Below are positions 3,700 to 12,925 of a stretch of DNA of 20,152 nt, piece after piece. Under the pieces are notes generated by a model that was given only the letters and a program-made list of their open reading frames with translations, did no database searches and was not told where the DNA came from. Location of the stretch: NCBI GenBank assembly GCA_021159235.1, contig JAGGSF010000038.1, positions 1 to 20,152 of the forward strand. Reading direction: 5' to 3'. This stretch comes from Deltaproteobacteria bacterium. Its GTDB lineage: Bacteria; Campylobacterota_A; Desulfurellia; JAGGSF01. A program made the position numbers and the translations under genes. Numbering within the stretch: the stretch's first letter is position 1; every line of letters begins with the position of its first letter.

Positions 3700-4812
3700 T
3701 CAACATTTGAACAGTTTTTTGGTCATCAGACAGGCCAATTTTAATGGGAGATGTTTGCTTTTCCTTGCCCTTTCATAAATTTTTTGATATGAGACATATC
3801 CTTTAGAGCAGAGTTCTGATGCAAAATCCAGGGTTGAGGTGCGCACCGCATACTTTTTAACCACAGCAAGGAGGGGGTAAAATAATCTTGAAAGGAGTAA
3901 GGCATATCTAAATTCTTTGTATATTGTATCTTCAAGCCGGTCTTCGTATCCAGAAATTTCGGAATTTCCACTTTTCAATGCTTTTTCAATGGTCTGACTT
4001 AAGATATGTGAAGAGAGTATTGCAGGGTATATACCACCTGCGCAGAAAGGATCAACAAGGTTTGCCGCCTCGCCCGTCAGGATCACCTGTCCTTTATGGA
4101 GTTTCTCTGGTTTTTCCCATAGAGATATCGGATATATCTTTGTTTTGTATTCACCTGGATGAAACTTTTGAACAGTGTTTTTTCTAAAGTATTTTCTAAT
4201 GGTTCCGCTTCCCACAGACAAAAATCCATCTTTGGGGAATATCCAGCCATAACCTGGGGAATTGTACCCGAGAAATATTTTCATTGTTCTGTCAAACTTT
4301 CCCTTGAAAGGAATTTCCACTTCTTCTGCAACAATAAACCGTCTTTTGGGAGCAAGACCGGAGACAAGTGAGACCCTGCTTCCAATTCCGTCTGCACCTA
4401 CGAGGAATTTTGCAAAGTATTTGCCTTTGTCTGTTCTTGCAATTATTCCATCTTTTGTCTCCGTATAGTCCAAAAATCTTTCATTATACCGAACATCCAA
4501 TCCACTTCTCAGATAAGCATCGAACTCTGAACGCAGGATACCGTAAGCGAAGACAATCTCTTTTGAAGAGACCGCTTTTAGCCCATCCTTATGAGAAAGT
4601 TCAAGTAAGCTGTATTCAACCTTTTTAAAGTTGCGCAGATGTTCAGGTAGAATAGATTTTACCGCAACCGGTAAAGCGCCAGCACACACTTTATCTCTAT
4701 TTGGTCCACCTCTTTCTATAACAATTGAATCAATATTTCTGTCTTTAAGGAAATGTGCAAGAGATGAACCTGCCGGACCTCCTCCTATGATGAGAATATC
4801 AGACCGTTCCAT
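3700..4812 (-). CDS. Geranylgeranyl-reductase-family FAD-dependent oxidoreductase
   Basis: Flavoprotein of the geranylgeranyl reductase family, members of which saturate double bonds in isoprenoid chains. Visible features are the N-terminal dinucleotide-binding motif (IIGGGPAGSS, residues 8-17), a family cysteine motif KVCAGAL (C43), the GADG motif (139-142), the substrate-side PGYGWIFPK signature (186-194) and the second FAD motif LTGEAANLVDPFCAGGI (245-261). The usual Asp of that last motif (GDA) is Glu here (GEA, 247-249), which is uncommon. At 370 residues it is typical. The substrate is unknown; quinone side chains or polyprenols are the natural candidates in a bacterium. It lies 21 bases downstream of tRNA-Ser on the same strand, with no clear Shine-Dalgarno sequence and no evident promoter in that gap. 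Confidence 0.85.
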   Translation of the reverse strand: MERSDILIIGGGPAGSSLAHFLKDRNIDSIVIERGGPNRDKVCAGALPVAVKSILPEHLRNFKKVEYSLLELSHKDGLKAVSSKEIVFAYGILRSEFDAYLRSGLDVRYNERFLDYTETKDGIIARTDKGKYFAKFLVGADGIGSRVSLVSGLAPKRRFIVAEEVEIPFKGKFDRTMKIFLGYNSPGYGWIFPKDGFLSVGSGTIRKYFRKNTVQKFHPGEYKTKIYPISLWEKPEKLHKGQVILTGEAANLVDPFCAGGIYPAILSSHILSQTIEKALKSGNSEISGYEDRLEDTIYKEFRYALLLSRLFYPLLAVVKKYAVRTSTLDFASELCSKGYVSYQKIYERARKSKHLPLKLACLMTKKLFKC

Positions 4813-4833
4813 ATCTGTCTTTAAAGGTAAAAA

Positions 4834-4924
4834 TGGCGGAGAGAGTGGGATTTGAACCCACGAGGGACATAAAGCCCCTACCTGATTTCGAGTCAGGCGC
4901 CTTCAGCCACTCAGCCATCTCTCC
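4834..4924 (-). tRNA. tRNA-Ser (anticodon CGA)
   Basis: Complete class II tRNA on the minus strand. The acceptor stem pairs GGAGAGA (from 4924) with TCTCTCC (4844-4838), followed by discriminator G and an encoded CCA (4836-4834). The anticodon arm CCTGA-CTCGAAA-TCAGG gives anticodon CGA, reading UCG. A long variable arm (AGGGGC / GTCCCT with a UUUAU loop), typical of tRNA-Ser, sits before the T arm GTGGG-TTCAAAT-CCCAC. Identification is by folding and anticodon only. The geranylgeranyl-reductase-like gene follows closely on the same strand. Confidence 0.97.
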
Positions 4925-4932
4925 GTCTTGTA

Positions 4933-4960
4933 ATGATACTACTTTTCTTGCAATAATCAA
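4933..4960 (-). promoter_or_regulatory. Possible sigma70-type promoter for tRNA-Ser
   Basis: Reading the minus strand, TTGATT (4960-4955), 16 bases, then TATCAT (4938-4933), whose end lies eight bases before the tRNA 5' end. Transcription would begin within a few bases of the mature end. The -35 box lies inside the spacer of the divergent promoter driving the kinase gene. Motif match only. Confidence 0.4.
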
Positions 4961-4976
4961 AGTGTTGCCCTATAAT
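4948..4976 (+). promoter_or_regulatory. Sigma70-type promoter for the c-di-GMP signalling operon
   Basis: TTGCAA (4948-4953), a 17-base spacer and a perfect TATAAT (4971-4976) on the plus strand, 31 bases before the ATG at 5008. The predicted start near 4983 leaves a leader of about 25 bases, too short for a riboswitch. It is the best-looking promoter in the window and the only obvious one for the six genes from 5008 to 12925. Confidence 0.7.
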
Positions 4977-5007
4977 CGTGAGGACTTAAGAAATAGGTGA
5001 ATAAAAG

Positions 5008-7284
5008 ATGAGTTGGAGAAATCCCCATCTATGGTATATCACCGTTATGATGATGGTCCTTGCGGTATTTTACTATCTTCTCAATCTCAATATACCCCAT
5101 GATTTGCACCGGAGTTTGTTTTTTATACCCGTATTGTATGCAGCTTACAGGTTCAGAATAAAAGGCGTAATAGTGATTGCTTCAATTTCAATGCTGATCT
5201 TTCTCCCCCGGGCTTTGTTTATATCTCCTTATCCTTACGCCTTAATCAGGCCTGTAGTTTTTGTTGTTGGTCTTTTTTTCTCGGGTTTTTTCTTTGCTGT
5301 GGCATTAAACACCATTGACAGGCGTAAGCAAGTAGGGGAAAGATTACGGGAGAGTGAAGAGAAATTTCGAGCTATGGCTGCTTCTGCTCAAGATGCCATC
5401 ATTATGATGGATAATGAAGGGAATATTTCATATTGGAACGAGGCTGCGGAAAGGATGTTTGGCTATAAGAAAGATGAAATTATAGGAAAACATTTACATA
5501 GGACTCTTGCTCCGGAAAGGTTTTATGAATCTTATTTAAAGGGATTTAAGAAATTTCAGATTACAGGAGAAGGTGCGGCTGTTGGGAAGACGCTGGAGTT
5601 GGCTGCAGTAAGCGTAGATGGAACAGAATTTCCTGTAGAGCTTTCTCTTTCCGCGGTAAAATTAAAAGGTAAATGGAATGCAACGGGAATAATAAGGGAT
5701 ATTACAGAGCGAAAGAAGGTGGAGGAAGAATTGGAAAAAGCCAAAAAAGCGGCAGAAGAGGCTAATCGGGCAAAGAGTCAGTTTCTTGCCAGCATGAGTC
5801 ATGAAATCAGAACCCCCATGAATGCTATAATAGGTATATCCGAGCTTCTCTCTGGCACCTCTCTCTATGATGAACAAAAAGAATATGTGGAGATGATAAA
5901 AATTTCAGCAGGCAATTTGCTGAACATCATAGATGATGTTCTGGATCTGTCTAAGATTGAGTCCGGAAAGCTTGAGCTTGAAGAGACAGAATTTAACCTG
6001 AGGGATGTTGTAGAGGAAACAGCTGTCAGTTTTGTAACTCAGGCCACCAAAAAAGGGATTGAACTTTTGTGTCATATAGATCCAGAGATACCTGCATACA
6101 TTATCGGTGACCCTATGAGATTACGTCAGATCCTGGTTAATCTTATCGGTAACGCTATAAAATTTACAGAAAGGGGTCAAGTTGTGGTTGATGTAAAAAC
6201 GGAGGAAAGAAAAGGCAATAGAGCAATTTTAAGGTTTTGTGTCTCTGATACCGGGATTGGCATTCCCAGAGAAAAACAGGCAAAGATATTTGAAAGTTTC
6301 ACCCAGGCAGATGGTTCTACCACCAGAAAATATGGAGGCACAGGATTGGGGCTTACTATTTCAAAACAGCTGGTAGAAAAAATGGGAGGTAGAATATGGG
6401 TAGAAAGTGAGATAGGAAAAGGAAGTAATTTTTATTTTACTATTTCTTGTTCTGTGGTTGAAAAAATGGAAAAAAGGGTTGTTCCACCAGGGATAAGAAA
6501 TCTCAGAGTTTTGATTGTAGATGACAATGCTACAAATCGTTTGATTTTGAGAGAGATGGTCTCTGGCTGGGATTTTTCACCAACCGAGGCAGAAGATGGT
6601 TTATCTGCCTTAAAACAACTGGAAAATAATTTTTATCAGTTGATTTTGCTGGATAAGAGTATGCCGGGTATGGATGGATTTGAGGTAGCAAAAAGGATAA
6701 AGCAGATGCCAAAGTATGCCGATGTGCCTATTATTGTTTTGAGTTCGGCTGAAGAGAAAGGTGATAGAAAGAGGGCTAAAGAGCTGGGAATTTCGGATGT
6801 GTTGATAAAACCTGTGAGACGCTCCAAACTTTATAATAGCATTGTAGCTGCTTTAGCAAAGAAAGAGAAAACGAAGGTGCCAGAGACAAAAGTTGAATCT
6901 ATATTTAAAGGTAGACCCTTAAAGGTTCTGTTGGCAGAGGATAATCCAATCAATCAGAAATTGGCAGTGAGGATTTTAGAAAAACAGGGCTGGAAGGTAA
7001 CGGTTGCAAACAATGGTAGAGAGGCGGTGGAATGGGTGAGGAAGAATGGGTTTGATTTTGTGCTTATGGATATCCAGATGCCAGAGATGGATGGGTTGGA
7101 GGCTACTAAGGAAATAAGGGAAAGAGAAAAAACAACAGGAAAACATATTCCCATTGTTGCCCTTACCGCTCATGCTTTCAGGGAAGATGAGGAAAAATGC
7201 CTTTCTGCAGGAATGGATGGATATGTGACGAAACCTATTAAGATTCAAGAGTTGTTTAAAACAATAGAAGATATTCTAAAGTAG
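5008..7284 (+). CDS. Membrane hybrid histidine kinase: PAS-HisKA-HATPase-REC-REC
   Basis: Sensor kinase feeding a phosphorelay. In order: four N-terminal hydrophobic segments (about 8-27, 36-49, 51-71, 80-100) with almost no periplasmic loop; a PAS domain (about 115-235); a short coiled linker; HisKA with the phospho-acceptor H265 (SMSHEIRTPMN); an HATPase domain with its N box (VNLIGNAIKFT), DTGIGI and GGTGLGL motifs; receiver 1 (about 497-615) with phospho-acceptor D549 (LLDKSMPGMDG); and receiver 2 (about 637-755) with D688 (LMDIQMPEMDG). Both receivers keep the paired acidic residues, Ser/Thr and Lys, so both look functional. With no extracytoplasmic domain, input is probably sensed in the membrane or by the PAS. 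The start has AGGTG upstream and lies 31 bases from a good promoter. It heads a six-gene operon and is followed by a free Hpt protein, the expected relay partner. Confidence 0.93.
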   Translation: MSWRNPHLWYITVMMMVLAVFYYLLNLNIPHDLHRSLFFIPVLYAAYRFRIKGVIVIASISMLIFLPRALFISPYPYALIRPVVFVVGLFFSGFFFAVALNTIDRRKQVGERLRESEEKFRAMAASAQDAIIMMDNEGNISYWNEAAERMFGYKKDEIIGKHLHRTLAPERFYESYLKGFKKFQITGEGAAVGKTLELAAVSVDGTEFPVELSLSAVKLKGKWNATGIIRDITERKKVEEELEKAKKAAEEANRAKSQFLASMSHEIRTPMNAIIGISELLSGTSLYDEQKEYVEMIKISAGNLLNIIDDVLDLSKIESGKLELEETEFNLRDVVEETAVSFVTQATKKGIELLCHIDPEIPAYIIGDPMRLRQILVNLIGNAIKFTERGQVVVDVKTEERKGNRAILRFCVSDTGIGIPREKQAKIFESFTQADGSTTRKYGGTGLGLTISKQLVEKMGGRIWVESEIGKGSNFYFTISCSVVEKMEKRVVPPGIRNLRVLIVDDNATNRLILREMVSGWDFSPTEAEDGLSALKQLENNFYQLILLDKSMPGMDGFEVAKRIKQMPKYADVPIIVLSSAEEKGDRKRAKELGISDVLIKPVRRSKLYNSIVAALAKKEKTKVPETKVESIFKGRPLKVLLAEDNPINQKLAVRILEKQGWKVTVANNGREAVEWVRKNGFDFVLMDIQMPEMDGLEATKEIREREKTTGKHIPIVALTAHAFREDEEKCLSAGMDGYVTKPIKIQELFKTIEDILK

Positions 7285-7288
7285 TAAT

Positions 7289-7294
7289 GGGAGG
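7289..7294 (+). promoter_or_regulatory. Ribosome-binding site fixing the Hpt start
   Basis: GGGAGG four bases before the ATG at 7299. An earlier in-frame ATG at 7287 overlaps this site and has none of its own, so 7299 is the better start. Confidence 0.7.
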
Positions 7295-7298
7295 AAAC

Positions 7299-7649
7299 AT
7301 GGAAAAGCCAGTGTTTGATCTAAATAAGGTATTAAAGATAGCGGATGGAGATGAAAAATTTTTGAAGGAAGTGGTAGAACTGTTTAAGGAAGATTGCGCT
7401 GATAAGCTGGAGGAGATTTCTTCTGCCATACAGAAAAAGGATTTTAAAACTATCGACGAGGTTGCCCATAGTTTAAAGGGGGCAGCCGGTAGCCTGGGTG
7501 CAGCAAGGATGTATGAACTGTCATTTGAGATGGAGAAGATGGGGAAAGAAGGCAGGTTAGAGGGTATAGAAGAGCTTTACGAACAGCTGAAAGAGGAATT
7601 CAATAACTTTAAAGAGTTTGTATCACAACCAGGATGGGAGAAAGAGTGA
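7299..7649 (+). CDS. Free-standing Hpt phosphotransfer protein
   Basis: Single-domain histidine phosphotransfer protein of 116 residues, predicted four-helix bundle, soluble. The phospho-acceptor is H57 in VAHSLKGAAGSLGA, with the flanking Lys and Gly of the family intact. It is expected to carry phosphate from the upstream hybrid kinase's receivers to the output receivers encoded just downstream. An upstream in-frame ATG at 7287 would add four residues, but the Shine-Dalgarno GGGAGG at 7289-7294 points to 7299. Its stop codon overlaps the probable GTG start of the next gene (GTGA), implying coupled translation and roughly matched amounts of Hpt and the first cyclase. Confidence 0.92.
   Translation: MEKPVFDLNKVLKIADGDEKFLKEVVELFKEDCADKLEEISSAIQKKDFKTIDEVAHSLKGAAGSLGAARMYELSFEMEKMGKEGRLEGIEELYEQLKEEFNNFKEFVSQPGWEKE
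7636..7640 (+). promoter_or_regulatory. Ribosome-binding site supporting a GTG start
   Basis: GGGAG five bases before GTG at 7646, which overlaps the Hpt stop as GTGA. An alternative ATG at 7634 abuts this site and lacks its own Shine-Dalgarno sequence. Confidence 0.55.
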
Positions 7650-8557
7650 AGATCCTTATTGCAGAAGATGATGAAGTTATTCAGTTAATCCTGCAAAAGC
7701 TTTTAGAGAGGGAAGGATATAGAGTAATTCTTGCTAATAACGGTCTGGAAGCCTGGAATGTTTTTCAAGAGAAAAGGGAAGAAATTGATATGGTTATCAC
7801 TGATTGGCTTATGCCGGAGATGGATGGCCTGGAATTATGTAAGAAAATAAGGAGTTTGGATGTATCTCATTATGTATACATAATTTTTATTACAGTGAGA
7901 GAAAGGAGGGAGGATGTTGTAGTAGGTCTTGAAGCGGGGGCAGATGATTATATTTCCAAGCCCTTTGATCCTCATGAACTTTTATCTCGGATAAGGTCAG
8001 GGGAGAGGATTATAGAGCTTGATGGGCAACTGAGAAAAAGGCAGAAAGAACTCGAGCATCTTTCTCTTACCGATGAGCTTACGGGGGTGTTGAATAGAAG
8101 AGGAATATTCAGGCGATTAAGGGAAGAGCTGAATCGTGCGGCCCGTGAAAAGTATTCCTTTAGTGTGATGATGCTGGATATTGATAATCTTAAGGAAATA
8201 AATGATAAGTACGGACATAGTACAGGGGATAAAGTGCTGTATGAGGTAGTTAGAAGAATTAAAGCCTGTTGCAGGCCTTATGATGTAATAGGCAGATATG
8301 GTGGAGATGAATTTTTGATGATTGTGCCGGTAGAAGAGAAGGGTATGGCTTTTAAACTTGCTGAACGCTTTCAGAAGGCGGTTTGTGAGAAATTCCTTAG
8401 CATAGATAATAAGCGCATAAATATAACCATAAGCATAGGAGCAAGTTTTGTAAAAACATCTGAGTATGGGCTTAAAGAGATAATAAAAAAAGCTGATGAA
8501 TGTCTTGTTAAGGCAAAAACAGCAGGGAAAAATATGGTGGTAATTCAGGAACTTTAG
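7646..8557 (+). CDS. Response regulator diguanylate cyclase, REC-GGDEF (first copy)
   Basis: PleD/WspR-like output protein that should make c-di-GMP from two GTP when its receiver is phosphorylated. The receiver (residues 1-120) begins ILIAEDDE and has D53 (ITDWLMPEMDG), the conserved Thr and the Lys of SKPFD. The GGDEF domain (about 135-300) begins LTDELTGVLNRRG and has the intact active-site loop GGDEF at 219-223. Five residues upstream is RPYD (210-213), the RxxD inhibitory site for c-di-GMP feedback. Start choice: GTG at 7646 with GGGAG five bases upstream and a GTGA overlap with Hpt; ATG at 7634 is possible and would add four residues. It is collinear with the next gene, position for position at the key motifs, which indicates tandem duplication. 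Confidence 0.93.
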   Translation: MKILIAEDDEVIQLILQKLLEREGYRVILANNGLEAWNVFQEKREEIDMVITDWLMPEMDGLELCKKIRSLDVSHYVYIIFITVRERREDVVVGLEAGADDYISKPFDPHELLSRIRSGERIIELDGQLRKRQKELEHLSLTDELTGVLNRRGIFRRLREELNRAAREKYSFSVMMLDIDNLKEINDKYGHSTGDKVLYEVVRRIKACCRPYDVIGRYGGDEFLMIVPVEEKGMAFKLAERFQKAVCEKFLSIDNKRINITISIGASFVKTSEYGLKEIIKKADECLVKAKTAGKNMVVIQEL

Positions 8558-8567
8558 TGAGTTTTCT

Positions 8568-9479
8568 ATGAAATTTTTGATAGTGGAAGATGAAGCTGTT
8601 TCTCGTCTGCTTTTGCAGAGGGTATTGCAAGATCAAGGGTATGAGGTTTTAGTTGCCAAAGACGGTCGGGAAGGATGGGAGATTTTTCAAAGAGAAAAGA
8701 AAGATATTTATCTGCTTATCGTTGATTGGATGATGCCTGTGATGAGTGGCCTGGAATTGTGTAAAAAGATAAGGGAAGCAGAGACATCACATTATGTTTA
8801 TATTATATTTCTTTCGGCAAAGGGAGAAAAGAAGGATATTGTAAGAGGACTTAAAGCAGGAGCAGACGATTATTTAACAAAGCCATTTGATAAAGAGGAG
8901 CTGTTTTCTCGAATAAATGTAGGACTCAGGATTATCAGACTTGAGCAGGCATTGAAGGCGGCAAATCAAAAACTTTATCTTCTGGCTACACTGGATGGTC
9001 TTACTAAGATTTTGAATAGAAGAGAGCTTTTAAACCGGTTGAAGGAGGAACTTTCCCGGGCGAGCCGTAAAGGAACTACTTTTTATCTGTTTATGCTGGA
9101 TATTGACCGTTTCAAGAAGGTTAACGATGAATATGGGCATGAGGCAGGAGACAGGGTTTTAATTGAGGTGGTGAACAGGATAAAATCCCGGTTGAGGTCT
9201 TATGATGTTTTCGGTAGATATGGAGGAGAGGAGTTTTTAATTGGTATCTCTGAAGCCGATAATGGAATTGCCAGGGAAATTGCGGAGCGTTTGCGCAGAT
9301 GTATCTGTGAGAAACCTTTTAATATCGGGGGTAGAGATTTAACGGTTAGTATAAGTATTGGTTTAGCTGAAGTTAAGCCCTCCCGAAATATAGACTTAGA
9401 AGCTGCAATAAGAAAAGCGGATACTGCTCTTTATAAGGCAAAACAGCGGGGAAGAAATAGAGTGGTCTGCATTGAATAA
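8568..9479 (+). CDS. Response regulator diguanylate cyclase, REC-GGDEF (second copy)
   Basis: Second REC-GGDEF protein, 303 residues. The receiver has the acidic pair (LIVEDE), D53 (IVDWMMPVMSG), Ser and the Lys of TKPFD. The cyclase domain begins ATLDGLTKILNRRE, with active-site GGEEF at 219-223 (an active variant of GGDEF) and RSYD at 210-213 forming the c-di-GMP inhibitory site. The key positions fall at exactly the same residue numbers as in the first copy, and stretches such as SHYVYIIF and GLELCKKIR are shared, so the two arose by duplication and have since diverged. The ATG lies 10 bases after the previous stop with only a weak Shine-Dalgarno sequence (AGTGAG). Both are probably phosphorylated by the same Hpt protein; differences between them could set different activation or feedback thresholds, which is inference. 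Confidence 0.93.
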   Translation: MKFLIVEDEAVSRLLLQRVLQDQGYEVLVAKDGREGWEIFQREKKDIYLLIVDWMMPVMSGLELCKKIREAETSHYVYIIFLSAKGEKKDIVRGLKAGADDYLTKPFDKEELFSRINVGLRIIRLEQALKAANQKLYLLATLDGLTKILNRRELLNRLKEELSRASRKGTTFYLFMLDIDRFKKVNDEYGHEAGDRVLIEVVNRIKSRLRSYDVFGRYGGEEFLIGISEADNGIAREIAERLRRCICEKPFNIGGRDLTVSISIGLAEVKPSRNIDLEAAIRKADTALYKAKQRGRNRVVCIE

Positions 9480-9485
9480 TCTGCT

Positions 9486-9490
9486 GGAGG
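9486..9490 (+). promoter_or_regulatory. Ribosome-binding site fixing the binding-protein start
   Basis: GGAGG five bases before the ATG at 9496, which is followed directly by a signal peptide. An earlier in-frame ATG at 9472 lies inside the preceding gene. Confidence 0.7.
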
Positions 9491-9495
9491 TTTTT

Positions 9496-10539
9496 ATGAA
9501 AACCGGATGTCAGATATTGTTAGCTATCATTGTATTTGCGTGTTTATTTCCCATAAGTTCTCTTTCTGAAGAAGTGAAGATATTTATGGTTCAGAGTTAT
9601 TCGGAGAGGGATTTATGCGGAATGCCTCAGCTTGAAGGAGCGCTAAAAGCGTTAAAGGACAGCGGTTTTACAGAAGATAATTCAAAGATTTATTATTTCT
9701 TCATGGATACGAAAAAACACTATACCACAGAGAAGCAGATTGCAGAAAGGGGGAATATTGCCTGCAGGAAGATTACTTCTGTAAAACCTGATGTTGTGAT
9801 TACCTTTGATGACAATGCCTTCAGAACTTTGGCGCCAGAGCTTATTCATACCAGGTACAAGTTGATATTCACCGGTATAAACAGACCGCCGGAGGAATAC
9901 AACAAAAAACTGCATTTTATGGATAGAAACAGAAAACCTACTGCAAATATAACGGGTGTTTATGAAAAGTTGCATATTGAAGACAACCTTAAACTTTTTG
10001 AAAAGATAATTCGTAAACCAGGAAGGGTGGTTTTCATATACTCGGATGATTCTGTAGGAAGAATTTTAGCAAATCAGGTGAGGTTTGAATTGAAGAATAC
10101 AGAGTATAAAGATAATTGTGAAATAGTAATGGTCAGGACTTTAACCGAATATAAGAATGCTTTAAGAAAGGTGGATGAGGACAAGGATGTAATTGCTTAC
10201 TCCCCACATGCCCACTCCTTGATTGATGAGAAAACAGGCAAAAGACTTAGCTTTAATGACACTATAACCTATACATTAAACAATTGTAAAAAGCCCGATA
10301 TAGTAACAAATGCTGATTTTTGCAAGGCAGGATTTTTTGGCGGTGCAGCTGTGGATTTTTATCATATGGGTTATCAGGCGGGGAATATGGCAGCGAAGGT
10401 CTTGAGAGGCGTTGATACAAAGAATATCAAGGTTGAGGATGCTAAGAAGTGTAAAATTGTCTTCAATGCAAAGAGAGTGCAGCAGTTAAGGGTAAAGATT
10501 CCACTGGATATACTGAATGTGGTGGATGAAATTTATTGA
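9496..10539 (+). CDS. Secreted ABC-type substrate-binding protein without a transporter
   Basis: Periplasmic binding protein resembling the ABC_sub_bind (TrpX-like) family, 347 residues. An N-terminal signal sequence (Lys2, then a hydrophobic core to about residue 22) precedes the mature part starting near SEEVKIF. C16 follows Val-Phe-Ala, a poor lipobox, so a soluble protein is likelier than a lipoprotein. Family-like segments include PDVVITFDDNA, LIFTGINRP, ITGVYEKL and VVFIYSDDSVGR, the alternating strands of a two-lobed binding fold. No permease or ATPase gene is next to it. Its end overlaps the start of a membrane HD-GYP sensor by 23 bases, and it lies behind two cyclases, so I infer a sensory rather than a transport role: presenting a ligand to the sensor's ectodomain. 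The ligand is unknown. Confidence 0.8.
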   Translation: MKTGCQILLAIIVFACLFPISSLSEEVKIFMVQSYSERDLCGMPQLEGALKALKDSGFTEDNSKIYYFFMDTKKHYTTEKQIAERGNIACRKITSVKPDVVITFDDNAFRTLAPELIHTRYKLIFTGINRPPEEYNKKLHFMDRNRKPTANITGVYEKLHIEDNLKLFEKIIRKPGRVVFIYSDDSVGRILANQVRFELKNTEYKDNCEIVMVRTLTEYKNALRKVDEDKDVIAYSPHAHSLIDEKTGKRLSFNDTITYTLNNCKKPDIVTNADFCKAGFFGGAAVDFYHMGYQAGNMAAKVLRGVDTKNIKVEDAKKCKIVFNAKRVQQLRVKIPLDILNVVDEIY

Positions 10540-12925
10540 AACCTTAAAAAAGCATATAATACCCATACTCGGGTTTGTATTTATATTTTTTGTGGTTATT
10601 TCTGTTGTGCGTTCCACCGGTCTGCTGAAAACGAAAATAAACCATTTAGTGAAAAAACAGGCACTCATACAGGCACGGGCAGTCAAGATGAATCTGACAC
10701 AATTTTTGGAGAGAAATAGGAAAATCACCGATGATATATTTCTAAATATACCAGAAGAAAACAGGAAAATGGTTTTAAAAACTTATATAAATAAATATAT
10801 AGATTTTTCAGACAGAGATTGTATAAATACCGTTTATTTCATTGATGAAAAGAAAGGAGTTCTGCTTCTTTATCCTGCATTTTCTGAAAGATTTCTCCCT
10901 CTTGAGTTCGTAGAAAATAGTGACTCTTTAATAGAAAAGGTAGAGAGGGTTAAAAAAGCACATAAGGCTTTGTATTTTGAGGAGGAGTTGATGGGGGAGA
11001 AATTTATTCCTTATACCGCAATTTGCCTTGTGAAACCTGTGTTTTTCAATGATGGTTCTTATGCCGGCAGTGTGGTTGAAATTGTTGATCTTAAGAAAAA
11101 GCTTACTGATATTTCCTCATATTTTGAGGATTATGCAATAAATTTGATAGACAAAAGGGGTGTGTATGTATTAAAGACTGAGGTTGACAAATCTTTCTTA
11201 TCTGCCTTTGTCTCGCTGTATGTTGATGAATGTTGTTTTGGTATAGAGGTGATAGGAAAGACCGGTTTAGATAAAGAACTTACCCGGAGCATTTCAAAGA
11301 TTGTCTTTAGTTTAGCTCTGGTTACACTGATAGCTTTTCTGATTGTAATAGGTGTGATTTTCACAGAGAGTGTAAAAAGAAAACAGGTTTTTGAACGCAG
11401 TCAGAAGAGATTAAACAGAAGAATAAAGGTATTGGAAGATATAATGACCTATTTCGGAAGGGAGATATCGGATGATTCTATAAGGAATTTGCTTATCGGT
11501 TTGAATGAAGCATTCGCATCTGAGATTTCTTCTATTTTCCTGAAGAAACAGGAAAAATTTTATATGTTTGATGGAAAAATTAAACGAAGGGATTATCTGA
11601 ACACAGAGGGAACTTTTGCTTATTATGTATGGAAAAACAAAAAGGATATGATGACAAACAGGTTTCAAGAGGAAGAATTCATAAGCAACGAGATAAAAAA
11701 GGAGACAGGGTTGCATGCTGCTATCTGTGTGGTTATAGCTTTGAGGGGAAATCTTTACGGCACTATATGTGTTGGTTACAGGGATAGGAGAAAGAAGTTT
11801 AACGAGGAGGATTTGAGATTTTTAAAACTCGTTGCGCATAAAATTGCCACCAATATCTATTACGCCACTATATCCAATGAAACCATAGAGACACTTGTAA
11901 ACTCCATTGAGGCTCGTGACAAATATACCAGGGGTCATTCCCGGAGGGTGGCGGAATATGCGAGGTATATAGCGAAGGTGATGGGATTTGGGAGTGATTT
12001 TCAAAGAGATATCTTCACAGCAGGGCTTTTTCATGATGTGGGCAAGATTGGCATTCCCGATATAGTGCTTCTAAAACCGGGCAAACTATCTCCAAACGAG
12101 TATAAAATAATGAAATTGCACCCTGTTTTCTCGTATGAAATATTGAAAGATATGGATACATTAAAGCCTGTTCTTGGTGGTATAAGGGCTCATCACGAGA
12201 GATGGGATGGAACAGGTTATCCCGATGGATTAAAAGGTGAAGAGATTCCTGTTAGCGGAAGAATTCTTGCCGTAGCCGATGCATTTGATGCTGTCACCAC
12301 GGATAGACCGTATAGAAAGGCTATGACTCTTTCTGAGGCTGAAAGGGAATTGGTAAGGAATTCAGGGATACAATTTGACCCCGAAATTATAAAAAAGGTA
12401 TTGCCCCATTTAAAACAGATGTATGAGTTAGGAAAATCAGTTAATGTTGAGGGGCGTAGCTTTTTCCCGGAGTATGTGGAAAAGGTAAGGCAAAATATGT
12501 TTTATACGGATTGGTTTACAGGTCTTTTGACCATGGCCTCACTCCAGAATGTTGTGGATAATCTGATAAATAAAGGTATTAATTTTACTGTGTATAGAAT
12601 AGATGTAGTAAATTTTTCCTATGTGAATTATAAGATGGGCAGAGAAAAGGCTAATAGTTTTTTATCGGAGATTGCGGACCTGTTGAGGGAGAATGTAGGG
12701 GAGGATGTTGCAAGGAGCGGTATAGATAGTTTTGCCTTTATTGTTAAAGATACAAAACAACCGGAGAATTTTGCTCGAAATATTTCAGATTTAATAAAGA
12801 AGAAGGTAGGTTTATCTGTCAGATATGCCTATGCTGTTTATCCTGAAGATGGAGAAAATACAAAAGATCTCATGTATAGGCTGGATGTAAGATATAAGCG
12901 GAGTAAGCTGTCAGGCTTTTTTTAG
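10517..12925 (+). CDS. Membrane sensor with GAF, HD-GYP phosphodiesterase and degenerate GGDEF domain
   Basis: Likely c-di-GMP phosphodiesterase controlled from outside the cell. In order: membrane segment (about 14-34); periplasmic domain of about 220 residues, probably Cache-like; second membrane segment (about 257-282); linker helix; GAF-like domain (about 300-455); HD-GYP domain (about 460-635); and a C-terminal region (about 650-802) that aligns by eye with GGDEF domains. The HD-GYP is intact: RGHSRRVAEYA, FHDVGKIG (H506, D507), HHERWDGTGYP (H559, H560; GYP 567-569). In the last region LTGLLNR has become FTGLLTMASL and the GGDEF loop is SGIDSF (734-739), so cyclase activity should be lost. 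ATG at 10517 is used; an in-frame ATG at 10526 is possible. It overlaps the binding-protein gene upstream, and its 3' end overlaps the convergent gene by 15 bases. Confidence 0.9.
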   Translation: MWWMKFIETLKKHIIPILGFVFIFFVVISVVRSTGLLKTKINHLVKKQALIQARAVKMNLTQFLERNRKITDDIFLNIPEENRKMVLKTYINKYIDFSDRDCINTVYFIDEKKGVLLLYPAFSERFLPLEFVENSDSLIEKVERVKKAHKALYFEEELMGEKFIPYTAICLVKPVFFNDGSYAGSVVEIVDLKKKLTDISSYFEDYAINLIDKRGVYVLKTEVDKSFLSAFVSLYVDECCFGIEVIGKTGLDKELTRSISKIVFSLALVTLIAFLIVIGVIFTESVKRKQVFERSQKRLNRRIKVLEDIMTYFGREISDDSIRNLLIGLNEAFASEISSIFLKKQEKFYMFDGKIKRRDYLNTEGTFAYYVWKNKKDMMTNRFQEEEFISNEIKKETGLHAAICVVIALRGNLYGTICVGYRDRRKKFNEEDLRFLKLVAHKIATNIYYATISNETIETLVNSIEARDKYTRGHSRRVAEYARYIAKVMGFGSDFQRDIFTAGLFHDVGKIGIPDIVLLKPGKLSPNEYKIMKLHPVFSYEILKDMDTLKPVLGGIRAHHERWDGTGYPDGLKGEEIPVSGRILAVADAFDAVTTDRPYRKAMTLSEAERELVRNSGIQFDPEIIKKVLPHLKQMYELGKSVNVEGRSFFPEYVEKVRQNMFYTDWFTGLLTMASLQNVVDNLINKGINFTVYRIDVVNFSYVNYKMGREKANSFLSEIADLLRENVGEDVARSGIDSFAFIVKDTKQPENFARNISDLIKKKVGLSVRYAYAVYPEDGENTKDLMYRLDVRYKRSKLSGFF

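Follow-up and report, generated by a model that had tools for sequence, protein, structure and literature searches.

The window analyzed here, a stretch of 20,152 nucleotides (nt), is the entire contig C18 (JAGGSF010000038.1) of a Desulfurellaceae-like genome (G000; 1.13 Mb, 122 contigs). Its plus strand carries a row of six closely spaced genes (5008-12925), which a first-pass annotation described as one self-contained circuit of the second messenger cyclic di-GMP (c-di-GMP), with opposing arms of synthesis and degradation. The six genes and their named domains are borne out by Pfam; motif residues were located by script. As judged from the sequences, the locus is a row of two separately inherited signaling modules: module A, comprising a phosphorelay and two diguanylate cyclases, and module B, comprising a secreted solute-binding protein and a membrane HD-GYP receptor. 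The class comparison covers 25 Desulfurellia genomes, three of them at the genus level (G000 and its congeners G001 and G002). Among named relatives, the metagenome bin "Desulfurellaceae bacterium RS_18_25" (JAGMDW010000025), i.e., G002, is the closest; its binding protein is 80% identical. The features of the row are as follows (ORF, open reading frame):

4948..4976, plus strand: candidate sigma-70-like promoter of the kinase gene, TTGCAA-N17-TATAAT (10/12 consensus positions)
5008..7284, plus strand: module A, membrane PAS hybrid histidine kinase with two receivers (H265, D549, D688; Pfam HisKA, HATPase_c, two Response_reg, and PAS)
7299..7649 (ORF opens at 7287), plus strand: module A, stand-alone Hpt phosphotransfer protein (Pfam Hpt, E 8e-18)
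7634..8557, plus strand: module A, REC-GGDEF diguanylate cyclase 1 (D57, GGDEF, RPYD inhibitory site; Pfam and residues)
8568..9479, plus strand: module A, REC-GGDEF diguanylate cyclase 2 (D53, GGEEF, RSYD inhibitory site; Pfam; paralog of cyclase 1)
9480..9495, plus strand: junction of modules A and B, 16 nt (362 nt in G002)
9496..10539 (ORF opens at TTG 9472), plus strand: module B, secreted PF04392 solute-binding protein of the sensor type (Pfam PF04392, E 1e-22; signal-peptide-like N-terminus)
10526..12925 (ORF opens at 10517), plus strand: module B, membrane receptor with GAF, HD-GYP, and degenerate GGDEF domains (Pfam HD_5, E 8e-44; GAF; GGDEF, E 4e-8)

Module A contains the complete residue set of a multistep phosphorelay: a phosphoacceptor His, ATPase boxes, receiver Asp and Lys, the Hpt His, and the output receiver Asp. 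In the kinase, H265, D549, and D688 are found exactly where they had been placed earlier, accompanied by the ATPase boxes (the N378 box, DTGIG at 414, and GTGLG at 444). Translation of the Hpt protein probably starts at 7299, behind a good Shine-Dalgarno sequence; its phosphoacceptor is then H57, as previously numbered, and H61 when counted from the ORF start. Both output proteins are REC-GGDEF cyclases, as had been proposed, with a GG(D/E)EF motif, an RxxD inhibitory site, and the guanine-pocket residues ND...GD (GGDEF at 223 and RPYD at 214 in cyclase 1; GGEEF at 219 and RSYD at 210 in cyclase 2; NDxYGHxxGD in both). The receiver Asp, given earlier as D53 in each, holds that position in cyclase 2 and is D57 in cyclase 1. 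In GGDEF proteins that produce cyclic GMP-AMP (cGAMP), the guanine-pocket Asp is replaced by Ser; since the Asp of GHxxGD is retained in both cyclases, both should make c-di-GMP. They represent a tandem duplication (49% identity over 303 residues).

Module A is a set of known parts in an ordinary combination. It shares with BarA/ArcB/TorS-type phosphorelays and PleD/WspR-type REC-GGDEF cyclases all His-Asp-His-Asp components with their residues intact, and differs from them in that the Hpt is a separate protein, the kinase bears two receivers, and the cyclases form a tandem pair. Its distribution is narrow: the set is present in each of the three genus-level genomes and absent from the rest of the class, and no Hpt counterpart was found in the other 22 of the 25 genomes searched. 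The kinase is 83-85% identical in G001 and G002; in G001 the row kinase-Hpt-cyclase-cyclase is preserved with identities of 83%, 79%, 79%, and 86%, and the module is also present in G002 (contig C157). The N-terminal multi-helix membrane domain of the kinase recurs in a PAS-GGDEF-HD-GYP protein of G001 (L055, G001:C60, 142-2397; about 44-50% identity over 250 residues); this sensor is thus found on two different outputs.

The two modules are separable. Module B occurs without module A in the Hippea maritima-like genome G009 and in its relatives G011 and G023, between unrelated housekeeping genes; the binding protein stands without module A in G022 too, likewise with unrelated housekeeping neighbors, where the receptor gene is cut by the contig end. 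Conversely, G001 encodes no binding protein anywhere in its genome and no close match to the HD-GYP protein. The six genes stand together in the window and in G002 only, with parts of the row alone in G001 and in G009, G011, and G023, which is not the pattern of a fixed six-gene operon family. Conserved synteny, which the first-pass annotation had named as a check, extends to one other genome, in which cyclase 2, binding protein, and HD-GYP follow one another as in the window, although 362 nt separate the first two of these genes, compared to 16 nt in the window.

Within the G002 gap (L016, 481-842) lie a direct repeat of 13-15 nt (GGCTAATATTCTT), an inverted repeat, and a short ORF (MTKIKDLSRKNFKGGDF...) that has a GGAGG of its own. 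Such a stretch was apparently lost from the window, whose GGAGGTTTTTATGA now serves the binding protein. In G001, cyclase 2 is followed by 277 nt of non-coding DNA (L054, 1-277) with a palindromic repeat of the CATTCCCGCG...CGCGGGAATCCAG type, up to the contig end. At the other end of the row, a nitronate monooxygenase gene follows the HD-GYP gene in the window; as it adjoins the P-II gene (glnB) rather than the HD-GYP gene in both congeners, the row has been locally rearranged. Taken together, the separability of the modules and the 362/16-nt junction indicate that the six genes were brought together recently, within one small lineage, and do not form a conserved unit.

A search for GGDEF domains in the assembled window genome returned three in all, every one in this row, and the two cyclases are the only intact ones visible there. 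That the row is self-contained is nevertheless not established, because contig C1 encodes a stand-alone HD-GYP protein of 228 residues and the end of contig C13 carries a fragment of a probable GGDEF-HD-GYP protein. The latter is 85% identical to the C-terminus of the PAS-GGDEF-HD-GYP protein of G001, which suggests that an assembly gap probably hides one or more further cyclase domains; the view that the row is the only c-di-GMP source of the genome was withdrawn on this ground. None of the three genus-level genomes yielded an EAL or PilZ domain, while H. maritima-like G009 encodes 22 GGDEF, five EAL, and two PilZ domains. Given the cyclases and HD-GYP proteins of the genus-level genomes, their c-di-GMP effectors must be of another type.

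These observations bear on the reading of the row as a single integrated circuit, in which the kinase and HD-GYP arms co-evolved, are co-regulated, and set the c-di-GMP level by opposition. The tight spacing in the window, the same gene order in G002 (in spite of its 362-nt gap), and the position of the two cyclases as the sole intact ones visible in the assembled genome are what would be expected of such a circuit. Each module, however, is found without the other, the nitronate monooxygenase gene lies next to glnB in both congeners, a sign of local rearrangement of the row, and further HD-GYP proteins are encoded elsewhere in the genome; an integrated circuit is thus unlikely, though it remains the strongest of the alternatives. 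Of the original proposal, the part that stands is that a kinase-driven synthesis arm and a periplasm-facing degradation arm, with intact motifs, lie in one gene row; the single unit is not supported.

The degradation arm is represented by the HD-GYP receptor, the translation of which probably starts at 10526. Its prediction as a membrane HD-GYP sensor holds: the protein has the full HD and HHERWDGTGYP (HHExxDGxGYP) catalytic signature, and two transmembrane helices flank a periplasmic region of ~220 residues. It also carries a GAF domain and a C-terminal degenerate GGDEF domain, both overlooked earlier. The closest solved protein is PmGH, the GAF-HD-GYP protein of Persephonella marina (PDB ID: 4MCW), which cleaves c-di-GMP and resembles the receptor across 340 residues of GAF and HD-GYP; the window protein adds the periplasmic sensor and the degenerate GGDEF. 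In the PmGH-like three-metal subtype, a Glu located four residues before a conserved His serves as an extra metal ligand. The receptor lacks this Glu and falls outside the subtype; as Y470 aligns with it, a two-metal center is expected.

The degenerate GGDEF reads GIDSF (EDNF in relatives), without the catalytic signature, and according to the alignment is retained, equally degenerate, in all orthologs. Its retention might indicate that module B is not, in practice, a c-di-GMP-degrading unit, the protein being mainly a sensor of c-di-GMP or guanosine triphosphate through this domain, or its HD-GYP domain acting on another cyclic dinucleotide; one HD-GYP protein among the PDB matches is indeed a 3'3'-cGAMP phosphodiesterase. 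The catalytic signature is complete, though, the closest solved protein is a c-di-GMP-cleaving one, and the cyclases of the genome are of the c-di-GMP type, which together make such a reading improbable.

Translation of the binding protein begins at ATG 9496, which follows TGGAGG, rather than at TTG 9472; hence, it does not overlap cyclase 2, and the gap amounts to 16 nt. Its secretion, proposed previously, agrees with the PF04392 match and the signal-peptide-like N-terminus, while the designation "orphan" turned out to be inappropriate: the protein is the constant partner of the downstream receptor gene. In each of the five Desulfurellia loci with both ends readable (the window, G002, G009, G011, and G023), the two genes share an overlap of exactly 14 nt. 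In another class, which contains G047 and is taken to be Desulfovibrionia, 297 genomes were searched and yielded close homologs (E below 1e-43). All 28 loci inspected, from 27 genomes, have a histidine kinase gene directly downstream, either overlapping or no more than about 20 nt away, and the kinase nearly always carries a receiver. Among more distant relatives, some are fused to a kinase in one protein and others are encoded beside kinases (G488, G406) or a chemoreceptor (G560), whereas the transporter-type relatives in G046 and G051 adjoin a permease and an ATPase, as read from the sequence. Among 386 sampled genomes, mostly far outside the class, just four others gave a match at 1e-15, and a contig scan with the binding protein as the query matched the congener alone. 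The pair has the makeup of a binding-protein-gated receptor, i.e., a secreted protein without transporter genes, constantly beside a receptor with a periplasmic region between two transmembrane helices.

Some relatives show other arrangements. In G158 (L131, 6114-9559) and G348 (L132, 293-3731), two or three binding-protein genes of this family stand in tandem; a Cache-PAS histidine kinase comes after the array in G158. In a Hippea relative (L022, G012:C11, 1-1982), a distant binding protein precedes a 456-residue membrane Cache protein without a recognizable output domain.

In a maximum-likelihood tree of 51 binding proteins, the HD-GYP-paired Desulfurellia proteins form one clade (94/89), its sister is a kinase-paired clade (100/99), and 24 further kinase-paired proteins branch next outside the two. 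As the HD-GYP-paired proteins nest inside the kinase-paired ones, the output partner appears to have been swapped; the most parsimonious account is that an HD-GYP partner replaced a kinase partner once, in the Desulfurellia line. The signaling group as a whole is split from the transporter-type proteins (100/100), and by pairing and phylogeny the binding protein is most likely a receptor subunit rather than a transporter subunit. That it is an ordinary, TrpX-like subunit of an ATP-binding cassette (ABC) transporter that landed beside signaling genes is very improbable: the Pfam name "ABC transporter substrate binding protein", a weak TrpX match, and the transport-type PDB relatives point that way, but the TrpX transporter model scores 57 bits against a curated cut-off of 390, no permease or ATPase gene is present in the window or beside the binding protein in Hippea, the pairing with receptors is constant, and the protein lies apart from transporter-type sequences on the tree.

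The locus is therefore best explained, with good though not full confidence, as a phosphorelay driving two cyclases, followed end to end by an appended HD-GYP receptor gated by a solute-binding protein. Starting from the domains, motifs, gene pairing, partner swap, and module separability evident in the sequences, we infer a phosphotransfer route, docking, ligand gating, co-transcription, and enzyme activities along the following lines. The membrane kinase would autophosphorylate at H265, as known for its family, and the phosphate would pass through the kinase's own receivers and the separate Hpt protein to D57 of cyclase 1 and D53 of cyclase 2. Phosphorylation would activate the cyclases and raise c-di-GMP, subject to product inhibition at the RxxD sites. 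The secreted, non-transporting binding protein would take up a periplasmic ligand and dock on the periplasmic region of the membrane protein encoded next, thereby tuning, up or down, the cytoplasmic HD-GYP domain, predicted to degrade c-di-GMP. Such tuning by a ligand-loaded binding protein is suggested by analogy with NspS-MbaA (PMC8967002, PMC9993111) and with binding-protein-activated kinases (PMC11113362). The ancestors of the binding protein were paired with hybrid histidine kinases until an HD-GYP enzyme became the output partner in the Desulfurellia line. Loss of the spacer in this genome, or its never having been gained, would then have placed both modules in one probable transcript, on which the synthesis and degradation arms may balance each other.

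Several points weigh against this explanation. The absence of module B in G001 is read from a draft genome (95% complete), the contig of which ends 277 nt after cyclase 2. For the periplasmic region of the HD-GYP protein, no matching family was found in Pfam or the PDB, and the structure model of this region is poor (mean predicted local distance difference test, pLDDT, 43). Comparison of the periplasmic regions of the HD-GYP receptor and the kinase partners gave no significant profile match (0.6% and 0.5% probability), while the two kinase-partner types match each other via a Cache-like stretch (74%); a docking domain shared by the HD-GYP and kinase partners is thus not demonstrated by their sequences.

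The single strong promoter assigned to the row could not be established. Promoter-like matches number 24, compared to 22.2 +/- 4.0 expected from shuffles, and the DNA upstream of the kinase, including the match at 4948-4976, is not conserved in G001; the placement of this candidate, 31 nt before the kinase start, is plausible. Further upstream, between tatD and the kinase, the window carries a flavin adenine dinucleotide (FAD) reductase gene and a tRNA-Ser (CGA) on the minus strand (3700-4924), in place of which G001 has a lytic transglycosylase gene.

Stimulation of kinases, chemoreceptors, and cyclase/phosphodiesterases by binding proteins has been described as widespread (PMC9602780). In Vibrio cholerae and Sinorhizobium, the periplasmic polyamine-binding protein NspS acts with MbaA, a GGDEF/EAL receptor (PMC8967002, PMC9993111), and kinases activated by adjacently encoded binding proteins are also known (PMC11113362). 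Module B resembles NspS-MbaA in that a non-transporting periplasmic binding protein is encoded with a membrane enzyme of c-di-GMP metabolism; the output there is GGDEF-EAL, whereas in the window it is HD-GYP with a degenerate GGDEF, and the binding protein belongs to PF04392. In LuxP-LuxQ, TorT-TorS, and XylFII-LytS, a binding protein likewise stands beside its receptor, a histidine kinase, and the nearest relatives of the window protein outside Desulfurellia pair with hybrid kinases in the same manner. The putative window pair differs from these systems in having a predicted phosphodiesterase as its output. No precedent for an HD-GYP receptor triggered by a solute-binding protein was found in the literature searched, which argues only weakly against its existence.

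The binding-protein/HD-GYP receptor pair, with its traceable partner swap, is the more interesting content of the locus compared to the six-gene circuit. It is conceivable, if only tentatively, that the PF04392 protein directly gates the HD-GYP phosphodiesterase, its output swapped from a kinase, and that this pair has been spliced behind the only visible cyclase pair of a reduced genome, so that one transcript sets an internal kinase signal against a periplasmic ligand signal on the same second messenger. The natural swap of partners, a kinase in one class and a phosphodiesterase in another, lends itself readily to testing how binding proteins dock on unrelated outputs and drive them. The locus is also an example of a small genome in which enzymes with opposing effects on c-di-GMP have come together in one probable transcript without being an old functional unit.

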